A stretch of 64,000 nucleotides of DNA from Gemmatimonadaceae bacterium. GTDB lineage: Bacteria > Gemmatimonadota > Gemmatimonadetes > Gemmatimonadales > Gemmatimonadaceae. Positions 20,872 to 62,864 of the stretch are shown one piece after another. Below the pieces are notes generated by a model, which saw only the letters and a program-made list of their open reading frames with translations, was not told where the DNA came from and did no database searches. The translations under genes were made by a program, and so were the position numbers. Every line of letters starts with the position of its first letter. Within the stretch, counting starts at the first letter, position 1. The stretch spans positions 1 to 64,000 of the forward strand of contig DASYSS010000048.1 of the NCBI GenBank assembly GCA_036003045.1. Reading direction: 5' to 3'.

Positions 20872-20972
20872 GGTGGACAGGTGGACAGGTGGACAGGTGG
20901 ACAGGCACTGCGACCGACGCTCTTCGTCTTTGCTCTTCCCGTCCACCCGTCCACCTGTCCACCCGTCCACCG
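20872..20972. repeat. Inverted GTGGACAG octamer array between fadN-type gene and thiolase (site B)
   Basis: Four tandem copies of the octamer GTGGACAG occupy 20873-20904. After a 36-nt gap, four inverted copies, GTCCACC followed by C, T, C and G, occupy 20941-20972. The arms can pair over about 32 bp with a few A:C or G:T mismatches at the eighth base, making a long hairpin with a 36-nt loop. It starts 3 nt after the fadN-type stop codon and ends 22 nt before the thiolase ATG, so it is intercistronic in a likely operon. Confidence 0.9.
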
Positions 20973-56919: not shown

Positions 56920-57828
56920 TCAGCGGCCGGTTCCTTTTTCCTTGGCGATTCGCTCGTCGAGCTGACGACGAGCGTCCTTCGCGAGGCGCCGGCACGCGTC
57001 GGGGTCGACGAATGCATTCGCATTTCCGGAGTCGCGCGACGCGAGGCGCTCGAAAACGTTCGAGGCGCCGGGATGCGGAGTCAACAAGATGTCACACGAG
57101 AGACTCTCGAGCACCGAGAACGAGTGCTCGAAATCGGCGACGGCGCTCGGGTATGTCGTATTCCTCGTGAACAGAAAATCGTCCGCCGAAACGGGCGATT
57201 GACTGTCCGCGTAGACGAGGTCCGCGCACCGCCCGCCTTCGCAGGATCTCCATGTCCACGTGGTTCCACCGGGAGTGTGGCCGCCGGTGAAGTGCGCGGT
57301 GAGCGCGACGTCCCCGCCTCGGAGGACCTCGCCGTCGGAGATCGGGCGCACGGTGGGAACGGATGGATAGGGCAAGACGATGCTGAGCTGCGGATCGCCG
57401 GGAATCCCTTTGCCGGCTTCGATCGTGCTCGCGCTCCAGCGGCTCGCCGCGACGGTCGCGCCCGTCGCCTCTCGCAGCGCCTCGATACCGCCCGCGTGGT
57501 CGTAATGGGCGTGCGAGTTGAGGATGAGTTTCACATCCTCCGGTCGAAAGCCGAGGGCGCGAATGTTGGACAGAATGAGTGGCGCGGATTCCGGCAGCGC
57601 GCCGTCGATCAGAACGTGTCCGTGTGGCGACGTGATCAGAATCGACGAAAGTCCGTGCGTGCCGACGTAGTACGCGTTGCCGAAGATTCGAAAGGGCTTC
57701 TGCCGCACGTTCCACACTGCGCAACTCGAACACTCGCGAGCGCGCCGGGCGGAATCAGTTGGACTCTGGGCAGCCAGCGAAGAGCGACCCAACAGCGCGA
57801 ACGCGAGCAGGGCGACCGATGTACGCAT
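56920..57828 (-). CDS. Subclass B3-like metallo-beta-lactamase
   Basis: A 302-residue secreted MBL-fold hydrolase; MRTSVALLAFALLGRSSLAA is a signal peptide ending near AQ. The zinc motif LNSHAHYDHAGGIEAL has the H116-x-H118-x-D120-H121 pattern of subclass B3, with H196 in TGGHTPGGTTW and H263 in LLTPHPGASN. A short CSSC pair is near the mature N-terminus. It should hydrolyse beta-lactams if true to family, but many environmental B3-like proteins are not resistance determinants. The M1 lipoprotein gene starts 2 nt after its stop codon. Confidence 0.9.
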   Translation of the reverse strand: MRTSVALLAFALLGRSSLAAQSPTDSARRARECSSCAVWNVRQKPFRIFGNAYYVGTHGLSSILITSPHGHVLIDGALPESAPLILSNIRALGFRPEDVKLILNSHAHYDHAGGIEALREATGATVAASRWSASTIEAGKGIPGDPQLSIVLPYPSVPTVRPISDGEVLRGGDVALTAHFTGGHTPGGTTWTWRSCEGGRCADLVYADSQSPVSADDFLFTRNTTYPSAVADFEHSFSVLESLSCDILLTPHPGASNVFERLASRDSGNANAFVDPDACRRLAKDARRQLDERIAKEKGTGR

Positions 57829-57933: not shown

Positions 57934-60642
57934 CTACTCGTCTCTTAGCGCCACGTTCGGATCCACACGCGCCGCGCGCGAAGCCGGGATCGCACTCGCC
58001 AGCGTTCCGACGATGAGCAGCGTTCCGACCACCGCGAGGTAAACAACGGGATCGCGCGGCGACTCCTGAAAAAGAAGCGATCCGATCTTCCCAGCGCCGA
58101 AAACGGCGAGGACCACACCGACGACCACGCCGGCGGCGGTGACCTTCAGGCCTTCACCCACGACCAGCCGCATCACGTCGCCCGACTCGGCGCCGAGCGC
58201 GATCCGCACACCGATCTCCCGGTTTCGCTGCGCGACGGAGAACGCCATCACGGCATAAAGACCCACGCCCGCGAGAGCCAGCGCGAGCGCGCCGAATCCG
58301 AGGAACATCGTGGCGCCGGACCGCCACGCCCGTGTCTCCGGGTCGATGATCCCTTGCAACGGACGCGCGCGCAACGCAGCGGGTGGCGGCATCAGCGGCT
58401 GCAACCGAGTGCGGAGCGGCCCACTTACGTCTTCAGGCCGGCGGTGGACGCGCACGAACATCGCGAGCATCGGCGGATCGAACGAGGCGGTGTACTGCGC
58501 CATCGGCAGGTAGTACATCAGATCGGCCTCCGAGCTGCGAAGCGCGCGTGACTTGATGTTCTCGGCAATGCCGACGACTGTGGTACAGGGAACGGTGTCG
58601 TTCGAGATCCGGAAGCACTTTCCGATCGCGTCTTGTCCGGGCCAGAGAACCTTGGCCATGGCTTCGCTGACCACCGCGATTCGCGGCGCGTCGGCGCGGT
58701 CTTCGACGGAGAAGCCCCTGCCGCGCAGGATTCGCGTGCCCATCGTCGCGAAGTAGCCGGGCGATCCGGCCTGCAACGCGAAGCGTCCGAGCCTGCGGAC
58801 GGAGTCGATCCCCGCGACGTACAGACTGCGCCCTTCCGACGAATAAAACGGCACCGAGACGACCAGCGTCGCGTCGTCGACGCCCGGCGTACTGCTCGCT
58901 GTTTGCACGAGATCATTCGCCAACGCGCGCTGACGCTCGCGCGGCAACTTCACCCCGCGCATGCTTCCCTCGACGTACACGATTCGATCGACGTCGTAGC
59001 CGAGGTGGAGCTCACGCACGGCCTGAAGGCTTCGCACGAACAGGCCGGCGCCGACGAGGAGTACGACCGAGAGCGCCGTCTGCGTGACGAGAAGGATCGA
59101 CCGAGAGCGCGATTGCCGATAGCCGTCCTCGCGCGTCCCCGCCTTGAGCGACCCGGCAAGGTCGCCGCGCCCCGCGTCGAGCGCGGGTAGAATGCCGGCG
59201 AGGATCGCGGTCGCCGCCGTCAGTGCGACGGCGAAGAGGAGAGTGCGCGTGTCGCTCACCACGGGCCAGTCATCGGCCGTCGCGACGAGCATTCTCTGAA
59301 ACGTTTTCGCGGCGAGTTGAGCGCCGACCAAGCCGGCGATCGTGCCGAAGCCGGCCAGCACCGCCATTTCGGTGAGCAGTTGCTGGACCAGTCGACCTCG
59401 CGTTCCACCGATCGCGCGCCGCACGGCGAGCTCGCGTCGTCGCCGCAGGGCGCGCGCCAGAAGCAGATTCGCCACGTTTGCGCAAGCGATCAGCAATACG
59501 ACCAATGCGACTACGCCGATCAAGCCGAGCACCCTGGCCTCCGGTCCAGCCATCGGCCCGCGCGCCAGCTGCAGCGGCCCCGCCTTGACCTCGGGGCGCG
59601 CGACGTCGACCGGCGCCACGTCGCCGCTCGTCGATCGCTCGACCTCCCAGCTCAGACGATAGGAGTTCGTGAGATCGGCGGTCGCGTCGGCACTGCTGAC
59701 GCCGGGCTTGCGGCGGACAATGACATCGAGCCAGCTCCAGCCGTAGTTCTGGTAAAAATCGGGCGCGACGGACGCCGCGTGCGTCGTCAGTGGCATGAAC
59801 GCGATCGGCAAGCGACCGTCGCTCACGCCCTCGAAGCCCGGCGGTGCGACACCGATGATCGTATAGAGGCGCGTCCCGAGACGGATCGACTTCCCGAGAA
59901 CGTCGCGGCCTCCGCCGTACTCCGTCTGCCAGAACCCGTAGCCGATCACCGTCACCGCGGCGCCGGCCGGCAGCGAGTCCTCCTGTGCCGTGTAGAACCG
60001 GCCGAGGACAGGGCGGGCATCGAAGAAGTCGAAGTAGCTCGCGCTGGCGATCGCCACGACCCGTGGCTGCGTCGCTTCGCCGTCGCCCACCGCCATCTGC
60101 CGATATCCGAACGCCGCCGCCTGCGCGATGGACGCGCTCGTCCGCGCCAAATCCTGATAGCGTTTGTACTCGAGGCTTCGGTCGAAAAACCGCTCTCCCT
60201 GCGCGTTCGAGAACCTGTAGTAGACGCGATTCACCGAGCTCGGATCGATCAGATACTTCGGCGCCCGGAACAGGACACGATCCACCACACCGAACATCGC
60301 GGCGTTGACGCCGACGCCGAGTCCGAGCGTCGCGACGACGACCGCGGTGAATGCCGGCCGATTGCGCATGCCGCGCAGCGCATACTTGGCGTCCTGCGAT
60401 ACGTGCTCGAGCCACGTCACACCGCGAGCGTCGCGCGAGTCTTCTTTGAAGCGATCGACGCCGCCGAACGCGATCGCCGCCGCGCGAAGCGCCGCGTCGC
60501 GCGGCATTCCACCGCGCTGGAGCTTCTCAGCCTCGCGCTCGATGTGGTCTCTCAGCTCGGCGTCCAACTCGCGCTCGACATCCGCGCGGTGAAAGAGCGC
60601 GCGGAGGCGAAAACGCAGGTCACTCCAGAATTCGACAATCAT
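57934..60642 (-). CDS. ADOP-type (MacB/FtsX-like) ABC permease
   Basis: A 902-residue duplicated permease like the one at 31.5 kb. The N-terminal 80 residues (FWSDLRFRLRALFHRADVERELDAEL) form the cytoplasmic permease-associated domain; MRNRPAFTAVVVATLGLGVG is TM1. Two MacB periplasmic cores and two sets of three TMs follow, ending in the VALRDE C-terminus usual for this group. No ATPase is encoded alongside. It follows the padR gene by 32 nt on the same strand. The ATG at 60642 is chosen because earlier codons read as Arg/Gly-rich sequence in padR. Confidence 0.93.
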   Translation of the reverse strand: MIVEFWSDLRFRLRALFHRADVERELDAELRDHIEREAEKLQRGGMPRDAALRAAAIAFGGVDRFKEDSRDARGVTWLEHVSQDAKYALRGMRNRPAFTAVVVATLGLGVGVNAAMFGVVDRVLFRAPKYLIDPSSVNRVYYRFSNAQGERFFDRSLEYKRYQDLARTSASIAQAAAFGYRQMAVGDGEATQPRVVAIASASYFDFFDARPVLGRFYTAQEDSLPAGAAVTVIGYGFWQTEYGGGRDVLGKSIRLGTRLYTIIGVAPPGFEGVSDGRLPIAFMPLTTHAASVAPDFYQNYGWSWLDVIVRRKPGVSSADATADLTNSYRLSWEVERSTSGDVAPVDVARPEVKAGPLQLARGPMAGPEARVLGLIGVVALVVLLIACANVANLLLARALRRRRELAVRRAIGGTRGRLVQQLLTEMAVLAGFGTIAGLVGAQLAAKTFQRMLVATADDWPVVSDTRTLLFAVALTAATAILAGILPALDAGRGDLAGSLKAGTREDGYRQSRSRSILLVTQTALSVVLLVGAGLFVRSLQAVRELHLGYDVDRIVYVEGSMRGVKLPRERQRALANDLVQTASSTPGVDDATLVVSVPFYSSEGRSLYVAGIDSVRRLGRFALQAGSPGYFATMGTRILRGRGFSVEDRADAPRIAVVSEAMAKVLWPGQDAIGKCFRISNDTVPCTTVVGIAENIKSRALRSSEADLMYYLPMAQYTASFDPPMLAMFVRVHRRPEDVSGPLRTRLQPLMPPPAALRARPLQGIIDPETRAWRSGATMFLGFGALALALAGVGLYAVMAFSVAQRNREIGVRIALGAESGDVMRLVVGEGLKVTAAGVVVGVVLAVFGAGKIGSLLFQESPRDPVVYLAVVGTLLIVGTLASAIPASRAARVDPNVALRDE

Positions 60643-60674: not shown

Positions 60675-61007
60675 TCAATCCATTCGAAGCACGAGCGCGA
60701 CGGCCGCGGTGAGGCGCGCCCAATCTTCGGCTTCGGTCGCGAGCTGCTTGCGCCCGACCTTGGTCAGCTCGTAGTACTTCGCCTTGCGGTTGTTGTCCGA
60801 CGCGCCCCACTCGGCGCGGATCCACCCCCGGCGCTCGAGCCGGTGGAGCGCGGGGTAGAGCGACCCCTGCGGGATCTGCAGCGTCGCCCGCGATACATCG
60901 TGGATGCGCTCGGAGATCGCCCAGCCATGCATCGGCTCGAGCGAGAGCGCTTTGAGAATCAGGAGATCGAGTGTCCCCTGCGGTAGGTCGAGTTTGTCGT
61001 CGCCCAT
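60675..61007 (-). CDS. PadR-family transcriptional regulator (acidobacterial PadR type)
   Basis: A 110-residue winged-helix regulator with the signature LDLPQGTLDLLILKALSLEP and LYPALHRLERRGWIRAEWG, the subfamily that accompanies ADOP permeases. AAGGGGAG lies 6 nt upstream of the ATG, and a perfect palindrome begins 17 nt upstream, so autorepression is likely. It is the first gene of the padR-ADOP operon. Confidence 0.95.
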   Translation of the reverse strand: MGDDKLDLPQGTLDLLILKALSLEPMHGWAISERIHDVSRATLQIPQGSLYPALHRLERRGWIRAEWGASDNNRKAKYYELTKVGRKQLATEAEDWARLTAAVALVLRMD

Positions 61008-61023
61008 GGAAGCTCCCCTTGCA

Positions 61024-61057
61024 CTTCTACAAGACGGTACAAGCCGTCTTGTAGAAG
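61024..61057. promoter_or_regulatory. Perfect 14-bp-arm palindrome, candidate PadR operator
   Basis: Arms CTTCTACAAGACGG (61024-61037) and CCGTCTTGTAGAAG (61044-61057) are perfectly inverted around TACAAG (61038-61043). TACAAG occurs at 61028 and 61038, exactly 10 bp apart, and its complement CTTGTA at 61048, another 10 bp on. Three half-sites one helical turn apart lie on one face of the DNA. The site covers the likely promoter of padR, whose start codon is 17 nt away. Confidence 0.75.
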
Positions 61058-61068
61058 CGCAAGGGGGC

Positions 61069-61174
61069 GGTGGACAGGTTGACGGGTGGACCGGTGGACC
61101 GGAACTGTTTGAGGCGTGAGAGTCGGGCGCTCAGACGTCCGATGTCTGATTACTCGCGGTCCACCCGTCCACCC
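61069..61174. repeat. GTGGAC octamer array between padR and amidase (site C)
   Basis: The left arm holds four octamers with phase 8: GTGGACAG, GTTGACGG, GTGGACCG and GTGGACCG (61070-61101). The right arm holds two inverted copies, GTCCACCC twice (61159-61174). The loop is 57 nt. The right arm ends 1 nt before the amidase stop codon (61176-61178). Together with sites at 2591 and 20872 this forms one repeat family, always touching a stop codon. Confidence 0.85.
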
Positions 61175-61175
61175 G

Positions 61176-62864
61176 CTACGGCCGCAGCGTACTCCCCAGA
61201 ACCACCGTCTCCTCAAACGTCGGCCTCCGCCGCGCCGGCGCCGCTTGCTCGAATGCGTACGCCAGCTTGAGCAGCGTGGCCTCGCTCCATGCGCGGCCGA
61301 CGAACGAGATCCCGACCGGAAGTCCCCGCACTTGGCCCATCGGCACAGTGACGTGCGGGTAGCCGGCGACCGCGGCGGGTGCGGTGAACGATCCGCCGCC
61401 GCCGGCGTCTCCGTTCACCAGATCGATGAGCCACGCCGGGCCCTGCGTCGGCGCGACGATCGCGTCGAGTTTGTGCTTGCCAATTGTCGCGTCGATTCCC
61501 TGCGCGCCCATCAAGCGACGGTTGTTCGCCAGATCGTCCAGGTACTTCTTCTCGGTGAGTGGCCCCTTCTTCTCCGCTTGCTCCATGATTTCCTGGCCGA
61601 AGTAGCGCAGCTCGCGCGACGCGTTCTTCGTATTGAACGCCATCACGTCGGCCAGCGATTTGATCCCGACACTCGGCTCGACGCCCGCGAGGTACGCGTT
61701 CAAATCGGCCTTGAACTCGTAGAGCAGCAGCTCGAACTCGGAGTCCTCCGTCTTTCCCGCGGTCTCGATGTCGGCCGGGTCGACGATCGTCGCGCCATGC
61801 TGCCGCATGAGATCGAGTGCCGCCGCGAACACCTTGTCAGTCTCGGGCGAATAGCCGGTGTATCGCTTGCGCGCGACGCCGATCCGCGCTCCGCGCAAGC
61901 CGTCTTTGTCGAGCGATGTTCGGTAGTCCGTCTGTGAACGTCCCCCCCCGATGCTCGCCCGCGTCGCCGAGTCGTGCGGATCGACGCCGGTGAGTGCGCC
62001 GAGCAGAATGGCCGCATCGCGGACGGTGCGCGCCATCGGCCCGGCCGTATCCTGGCTGTGCGCGATCGGGATGATTCCGGCGCGGCTGATGAGCCCGACC
62101 GTCGGCTTGATGCCGACGAGCGCCGACGCCGCGGACGGCGACGTGACCGACCCATCCGTTTCCGTACCGATGGCGACCGCGCAGCAGTTCGCCGCCGTCG
62201 CCGCGCCCGATCCGGAGCTCGAGCCGGATGGCGTTCGATCGAGCACGTACGGATTGCGCGTCTGCCCGCCGCGTCCGCTCCACCCGCTCGACGAGTGCGT
62301 CGAACGGAAGTTCGCCCACTCGCTCAAGTTCGTCTTGCCGATGATCACCGCGCCGGCCGCTTTCAAGCGCTCGGCGACCCACGAATCCTTCGCGGCGATG
62401 TGACCAGCCAACGCGAGAGAGCCGGCGGTCGTATGCATGTGGTCGGCGGTGTCGATGTTGTCCTTGATCAACACCGGAATGCCGTGCAGCGGCCCGCGAG
62501 TCTTGCCGGCTTTACGCTCTTCGTCGCGCAGTCGCGCGATCGCCAGCGCGTCGGGATTGAGCTCGATGACCGAGTTGATGGAGGGGCCGCGCTGATCGAT
62601 GGCGGCGATGCGCTCGAGATACTGTCGTGAGAGCGATTGCGCCGTGTCCTGCCCGGACTGCATGCGTCCCTGCAGCTCTTCGATCGTCAGCTCGTCGAGA
62701 GCGAACGCCGGGACCTGCTGCTTCGCGCCGGATGTCGGCGCGGTGGAGGCACCGCCCGCGGCCGATCCGCCGAGCGTCGACCCGCCCATCACGGCGGCGG
62801 CGAGCGTCGCGCCGACGAACCCGCGACGGGTGATTGTGGTCTTGTCGTCGCGGTCGTCGGTCAC
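61176..62864 (-). CDS. Secreted amidase (amidase-signature, Tat-exported)
   Basis: A 562-residue amidase-signature protein. TRRGFVGATLAAAVMGG at the N-terminus is a twin-arginine signal. The catalytic Lys is in GIPVLIKDNIDT, the cis-Ser in TPSGSSSGSGAATAA, and the nucleophilic Ser in GTETDGSVTSPSAASALVG, the complete Ser-cisSer-Lys triad. It hydrolyses an amide or peptide amide; substrate unknown. It follows the second plug protein gene by 18 nt. Confidence 0.94.
   Translation of the reverse strand: MTDDRDDKTTITRRGFVGATLAAAVMGGSTLGGSAAGGASTAPTSGAKQQVPAFALDELTIEELQGRMQSGQDTAQSLSRQYLERIAAIDQRGPSINSVIELNPDALAIARLRDEERKAGKTRGPLHGIPVLIKDNIDTADHMHTTAGSLALAGHIAAKDSWVAERLKAAGAVIIGKTNLSEWANFRSTHSSSGWSGRGGQTRNPYVLDRTPSGSSSGSGAATAANCCAVAIGTETDGSVTSPSAASALVGIKPTVGLISRAGIIPIAHSQDTAGPMARTVRDAAILLGALTGVDPHDSATRASIGGGRSQTDYRTSLDKDGLRGARIGVARKRYTGYSPETDKVFAAALDLMRQHGATIVDPADIETAGKTEDSEFELLLYEFKADLNAYLAGVEPSVGIKSLADVMAFNTKNASRELRYFGQEIMEQAEKKGPLTEKKYLDDLANNRRLMGAQGIDATIGKHKLDAIVAPTQGPAWLIDLVNGDAGGGGSFTAPAAVAGYPHVTVPMGQVRGLPVGISFVGRAWSEATLLKLAYAFEQAAPARRRPTFEETVVLGSTLRP

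Follow-up and report, generated by a model that had tools for sequence, protein, structure and literature searches.

A two-armed inverted repeat at the predicted padR promoter as a probable autoregulatory operator of a padR-ADOP operon

What recognises the long inverted repeat in front of padR in this 64-kb window (the whole stretch of DNA analysed, 64,000 nucleotides), and is it the entire palindrome or a part of it that forms the recognition unit? The padR gene (60675–61007, minus strand) encodes a predicted repressor of 110 aa that exceeds the curated cut-off of the padR_acidobact family (TIGR03433, 150.5 bits against 101.8) and has the PadR winged-helix domain (PF03551, 73.6 bits). Next to it lies the gene for an ADOP permease (57934–60639, minus strand), a full-length duplicated FtsX/MacB permease (TIGR03434, 694.4 bits against a cut-off of 622.3) with perm_prefix_1, MacB_PCD and FtsX matches. 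These soil bacteria have an expanded set of ADOP permeases and PadR partners, with dozens in each genome. The genome that contains the window (G000, 5.37 Mb) has 70 TIGR03433 matches, 55 of them over the cut-off, and at least 67 ADOP genes over the cut-off, a lower bound because scoring covered 67 of 147 candidates and the list lacks the ADOP of the window itself. The 5' neighbour of padR is an amidase gene (61176–62864, minus strand), and a terminator scan found no terminator after it. Directly 3' of the ADOP gene lies a gene for a subclass B3 metallo-beta-lactamase (56920–57828, minus strand; NF033105, 336.7 bits against a cut-off of 240). It was considered as a part of the module and rejected: the 8.5 kb surrounding padR at each of five orthologous loci contained no match to it, and it therefore gives no hint as to the ligand.

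The inverted repeat and the predicted padR promoter

The sequence-only reading had described 61024–61057 as a perfect palindrome with 14-bp arms around a TACAAG spacer. The letters, CTTCTACAAGACGG-TACAAG-CCGTCTTGTAGAAG, bear this out, and the repeat extends further than was described: the 34 bp are the perfect core of an inverted repeat at 61015–61066 (no strand assigned), in which two arms of 23 nt, complementary at 22 of 23 positions with one mismatch, flank TACAAG (61038–61043, likewise unstranded). A scan of the whole window ranked it first among inverted repeats with a score of 20, against a best of 15 and a mean of 11.8 in 200 dinucleotide-preserving shuffles. The second strongest inverted repeat, near 20921 (arms of ~32 nt, spacer of ~20 nt, score 17), also scores above every shuffle. 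The edge of the 61015–61066 repeat is 8 bp from the padR ATG (61007, minus strand).

The left, promoter-proximal arm spans 61044–61066 (minus strand), with the core CTTCTACAAG at 61048–61057, and the right arm spans 61015–61037 (minus strand), with the core CTTGTAGAAG at 61024–61033. A predicted -35 element, TTGCGC (61057–61062, minus strand), is followed at 17 bp by a predicted -10 element, TACCGT (61034–61039, minus strand), and a Shine-Dalgarno-like AAGGGGAG (61013–61020, minus strand), identified by sequence, lies partly within the right arm. The predicted promoter is enclosed by the inverted repeat at a fixed geometry: among the 35 distinct sites described below, TTG is found in all 35 and a -10-like [TC]ANNNT at exactly 17 bp in 29, the next best spacing occurring in 4/35. 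A strict sigma-70 scan called no promoter at the repeat; the -35 element is weak, and the case for a promoter rests on conservation. Since the conserved TTG, 17 bp and [TC]ANNNT geometry places TTGCGC at 61057–61062, the left arm is predicted to supply the -35 element, and the right arm would lie over the predicted start of transcription and over much of the Shine-Dalgarno sequence. The dyad thus overlaps the predicted padR promoter, and the earlier proposal of a promoter-overlapping operator for the adjacent padR-ADOP operon gains support from the predicted promoter inside the repeat and from its conservation.

Conservation and genomic context of the site

Conservation was scored at relatives of PadR chosen by protein identity, blind to the site. 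A search of 179 genomes of the same family with an E threshold of 1e-40 gave 32 PadR matches, spread over 27 genomes. Of the 30 that were read, 24 are at least 75% identical (rounded), a number that includes the window PadR. The left arm, CTTCTACARG, stands before the gene with at most one mismatch in 23 of these 24, and both arms, with at most one mismatch in all, in 19. Five orthologues are without two well-matched arms: four have the left arm without the right (L353, L354, L356 and L358), and one (L359) has a good right arm and three mismatches in the left. The six PadRs at 62–68% identity have 3 or 4 mismatches of 20. Over all promoters, the lowest value in 50 shuffles of each was 3 to 6. 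Absence of the palindrome upstream of orthologous padR genes had been named as an observation that would count against an operator; 22 of the 23 other PadRs of at least 75% identity retain at least the left arm.

A scan of public genomes, a set that partly overlaps the family set (some genomes are common to both), gave the same picture. The 22 closest PadRs (67–85% identity) all match with at most 4/20 mismatches, two of their promoters (L189 and L192) being without the right arm, and of the next 58 two (L218 and L225) reach 4/20 or fewer, the others having 5 to 9. Records titled Gemmatimonadaceae, Acidobacteria, Vicinamibacteria and Edaphobacter are included among the 22, and two that are titled Acidobacteria (L200 and L201) have zero mismatches. 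The candidate site recurs before related regulator genes in two bacterial phyla.

The opposite approach was to choose sites by DNA pattern, blind to the genes. The pattern CTTCTACA-N10/32-TGTAGAAG, the 16-base form of the site, is carried by only 19 of the 179 family genomes, in which it occurs at 30 sites; the reversed pattern gave 13. The stricter CTTCTACARG-N6/34-CYTGTAGAAG yielded 20 sites from 15 of the 394 class genomes, five of these sites being new, against 1 for the reversed pattern. Among the resulting 35 distinct sites, 24 are directly 5' of padR, and 11 directly 5' of an ADOP gene in a locus where no padR was detected; the loci span about 1.2–2 kb either side of the site, and a padR could sit farther away. 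All 11 of these ADOP genes were confirmed by TIGR03434 at E 2.1e-65 or better, scoring below the full-length cut-off because all of them run off the end of the locus. They are spread over seven genomes, six of which also have a padR with both arms; the padR of the seventh (G018) has the left arm alone. The protein-identity and DNA-pattern searches, opposite in what they were blind to, agree on the operator reading. Since all 35 sites stand before padR or a padR-less ADOP gene, PadR probably also acts in trans on the padR-less ADOP genes of related genomes.

Putative trans control is seen only in these relatives because the genome of the window has no second site. The 26-bp core has a single exact copy there, and the regulon search that had been suggested, with TACAAGACGG-N6, was run and recovers the window site alone. 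An own-genome regulon defined by TACAAGNCG-N8-CGNCTTGTA with up to three mismatches was rejected, with 44 matches against 97 for the reversed control and the window site alone real; no second site was found in the own genome, relaxed pattern included. At the family level, TACAAGAC-N10-GTCTTGTA with 1 mismatch occurs at two further places (L111 and L112).

Arms, spacing and the recognition unit

The conserved element is CTTCTACARG, which continues outwards as far as about CCCCTTGCRC. This outer consensus of the left arm has a weaker counterpart, GYGCAAGGGG, on the right. CTTG-N8-CARG is contained in each arm, and the arms do not match the canonical PadR box ATGT-N8-ACAT, having neither ATGT nor ACAT. 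The distance between the 10-bp cores is 11 to 24 bp at padR sites and 21 to 25 bp at ADOP sites, and spacings of at least 21 bp account for 5/24 of the former and 11/11 of the latter (Fisher p 1e-5). Arm spacing across this 11–25 bp range shows no helical phasing.

A second class of padR operator was observed, a dyad CCCATCGNNNATCGATGGG that is often doubled, ~50 bp apart, around -35 (L029, L012, L338 and L340). It shows two complete 19-bp dyads, 50–51 bp apart, in the same genomes. A control search with CCCATCGNNNATCGATGGG found 10 sites in 7/179 genomes, against 0 for the reversed control; 8 are at padR or ADOP genes (one of them, L334, at an ADOP gene whose locus has no padR) and 2 are elsewhere (L336 and L339).

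The variable spacing, the one-armed orthologues, the presence of CTTG-N8-CARG in each arm and the two-dyad second class argue that the recognition unit is more likely the arm than the 34-bp palindrome, with one PadR dimer per arm fitting best. The sequence-only reading had proposed a single palindromic operator of 34 bp, in which three TACAAG half-sites, at 61028, 61038 and 61048, lie one helical turn apart and more than one PadR dimer could bind cooperatively in a fixed 10-bp register. The arrangement of three half-sites is present in the window as described, with the correction that the copy at 61048 reads CTTGTA and faces opposite to the other two, and LmrR, also a PadR protein, occupies one operator as two dimers (PMC5428041). 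The copy in the spacer does read TACAAG, but this 6-nt stretch is not self-complementary. The model fails because TACAAG is found exactly in the spacer of 1/35 sites, the arms are 11–25 bp apart without helical phasing and 4/24 orthologues have the left arm alone, and we regard it as unlikely.

We instead favour, with a probability of roughly 0.86, the reading in which the palindrome serves the padR-ADOP operon as an autoregulatory operator, its two arms being two PadR sites from which bound PadR would repress until a ligand releases it. The adjacent PadR would bind CCCCTTGCGCTTCTACAAG, most simply as one dimer per arm, at two sites placed head to head around -10, one over -35 and the other over the start and the ribosome-binding site. 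Bound PadR would block RNA polymerase, and the ligand, presumably an ADOP substrate, would release it; in related genomes PadR would also control padR-less ADOP genes in trans. What the data show directly is where the site lies, its promoter geometry, its conservation, its exclusive context in the genomes and its co-variation with the PadR clade; binding, repression, dimer stoichiometry and ligand release we infer from sequence comparison.

A hairpin in the 5' leader could also act as RNA, hiding the Shine-Dalgarno sequence and controlling or insulating padR translation, for instance against transcripts that read through from the amidase gene, which stops 168 bp upstream with no terminator found. 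The repeat as RNA does fold strongly (-47.3 kcal/mol, z -9.66), and the Shine-Dalgarno sequence is partly inside its right arm. However, transcription is predicted to start within the repeat, and the leader that would then remain is not unusually structured (-5.8 kcal/mol, z -0.12). In addition, what the arms preserve across two phyla is one particular sequence, beyond complementarity alone, and four orthologues retain just the arm over -35. Control by such a hairpin therefore seems distinctly improbable, and folding of any transcripts that read through may be incidental.

Co-variation of padR promoters with PadR clades

Promoters were compared across PadR proteins of differing identity. Of 240 loci, 238 had a PadR hit; dropping hits of less than 60 bits or with less than 200 bp upstream left 234, and removing near-duplicates left 228. 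Promoter similarity was measured as the best ungapped shared block, a score of 13 or more counting as shared. It rises with PadR identity across the 228 PadRs, a set in which relatives of the window PadR are over-represented and pairs are not independent of one another (Mantel r 0.463, 0/999 permutations as high), against a plain correlation of -0.023 for the next region upstream, which served as the control stretch. PadR pairs of at least 75% identity share a block in 88.1% of 469 cases (control stretch 3.8%), and pairs below 35% identity in 0.3% of 912. Between Gemmatimonadota and Acidobacteriota, a split that is approximate because it was assigned by locus number from record titles, 51.3% of 236 pairs at 65–80% identity share a block, against 0.4% for the control. 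When identity in the rest of the protein is held at 65–75%, sharing climbs with identity of the recognition helix, from 0.170 (n=47) through 0.316 (376) and 0.563 (355) to 1.000 (25). Promoter similarity follows PadR identity, which argues that different PadR clades have different putative operators.

These data bear on whether a regulator other than the adjacent PadR binds the site. The proteins were identified by similarity alone, which leaves room for this, but all 35 sites stand exclusively before padR or ADOP genes, and operator sharing grows with PadR identity and also with recognition-helix identity at equal identity elsewhere. A different regulator has, in our estimate, a small chance of being the right explanation. 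The long intergenic hairpin could suggest a mobile repeat of the REP or MITE type, or else a terminator. Copy number and position refute this: the site has a single copy in the genome and is always placed at a promoter, with no T-run and no terminator call.

For the autoregulatory reading of the padR-ADOP site, cdPadR1 of Clostridium difficile R20291 is the nearest arrangement among the described systems compared here. This small PadR recognises two separate inverted-repeat elements in its own promoter. Their form is TACT-N11/12-AGTA, the core is AT-rich, and some 200 copies are predicted in the genome (PMC5050560). Location at the own promoter, two separate elements and loose spacing within the element are common to both systems, whereas the present element is GC-richer, occurs once or a few times per genome and is confined to padR or ADOP genes. 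LmrR of Lactococcus lactis is likewise an autoregulated PadR-family repressor adjoining a transporter gene, with two dimers on one operator, and CTTG-N8-CARG resembles the 4-8-4 half-site spacing of the PadR consensus ATGT-N8-ACAT given in the LmrR paper; the half-site sequence differs, and the LmrR target is the ABC exporter LmrCD, not an ADOP permease (PMC5428041). LftR of Listeria monocytogenes is also a short PadR (PadR-2) and binds a partial palindrome in its own promoter, but operator and target differ (PMC6457526). The local regulons of the LacI family offer a parallel of many local autoregulated paralogues with motifs diverging by clade, in another family, with sugar regulons and mostly one palindrome per dimer (PMC4052901). 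No paper describing operators of ADOP or padR_acidobact genes turned up in the open-access literature that was searched. The putative operator described here behaves like a PadR autoregulatory operator, yet it differs from the canonical ATGT-N8-ACAT box.

We consider it reasonably probable that the padR_acidobact paralogues of one genome, of which there are dozens, form a natural set of largely insulated repressor-operator pairs. Each PadR clade would then have an operator class to itself, which changes along with the recognition helix yet is conserved between phyla, and some PadRs would also govern orphan ADOPs in trans. If this is true, insulated pairs and the orphan ADOPs that they command would make up small transporter regulons. 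A defined operator would provide a ready assay for the ligands of an ADOP module and would assign padR-less ADOP genes to a regulator. It would also offer a large natural series in which to work out how PadRs select their DNA sites and from which to design repressors insulated from one another. The diversity of operators from clade to clade and the putatively trans-controlled ADOP genes are the more interesting part.

A possible residue-base code was sought by mutual information in 26 PadR representatives of less than 70% identity, using a TTG-N3-[TA]TC frame that is found in 60/228 promoters against 10 control regions. W29, which aligns with a tyrosine of LmrR, is at or near the top against arm positions 7–8 (z 3.4 and 5.0), and helix columns weakly exceed the rest (p 0.02); since several hundred tests were made with 100 shuffles each, this is a lead rather than a result.

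Within the genome of the window, 32/56 padR promoters have a dyad or repeat at p 0.05 or less against shuffles, compared with 9/56 for the adjacent upstream stretch. A relative of at least 70% identity outside the genome exists for 34 of the 56 PadRs, and a promoter block is shared in 29 of these 34 (control block 2/34). Within the genome a block is common to 36/1540 pairs, some of them via a GGTGGACC repeat, and GGTGGACC-like repeats, which also stand 5' of other padR genes of the same genome (L043 and L049), raise promoter similarity artificially. In the window, eight-base repeats of the GGTGGACC type are found at 61069–61100 and 61157–61175, where they are inverted and flank a short stretch.
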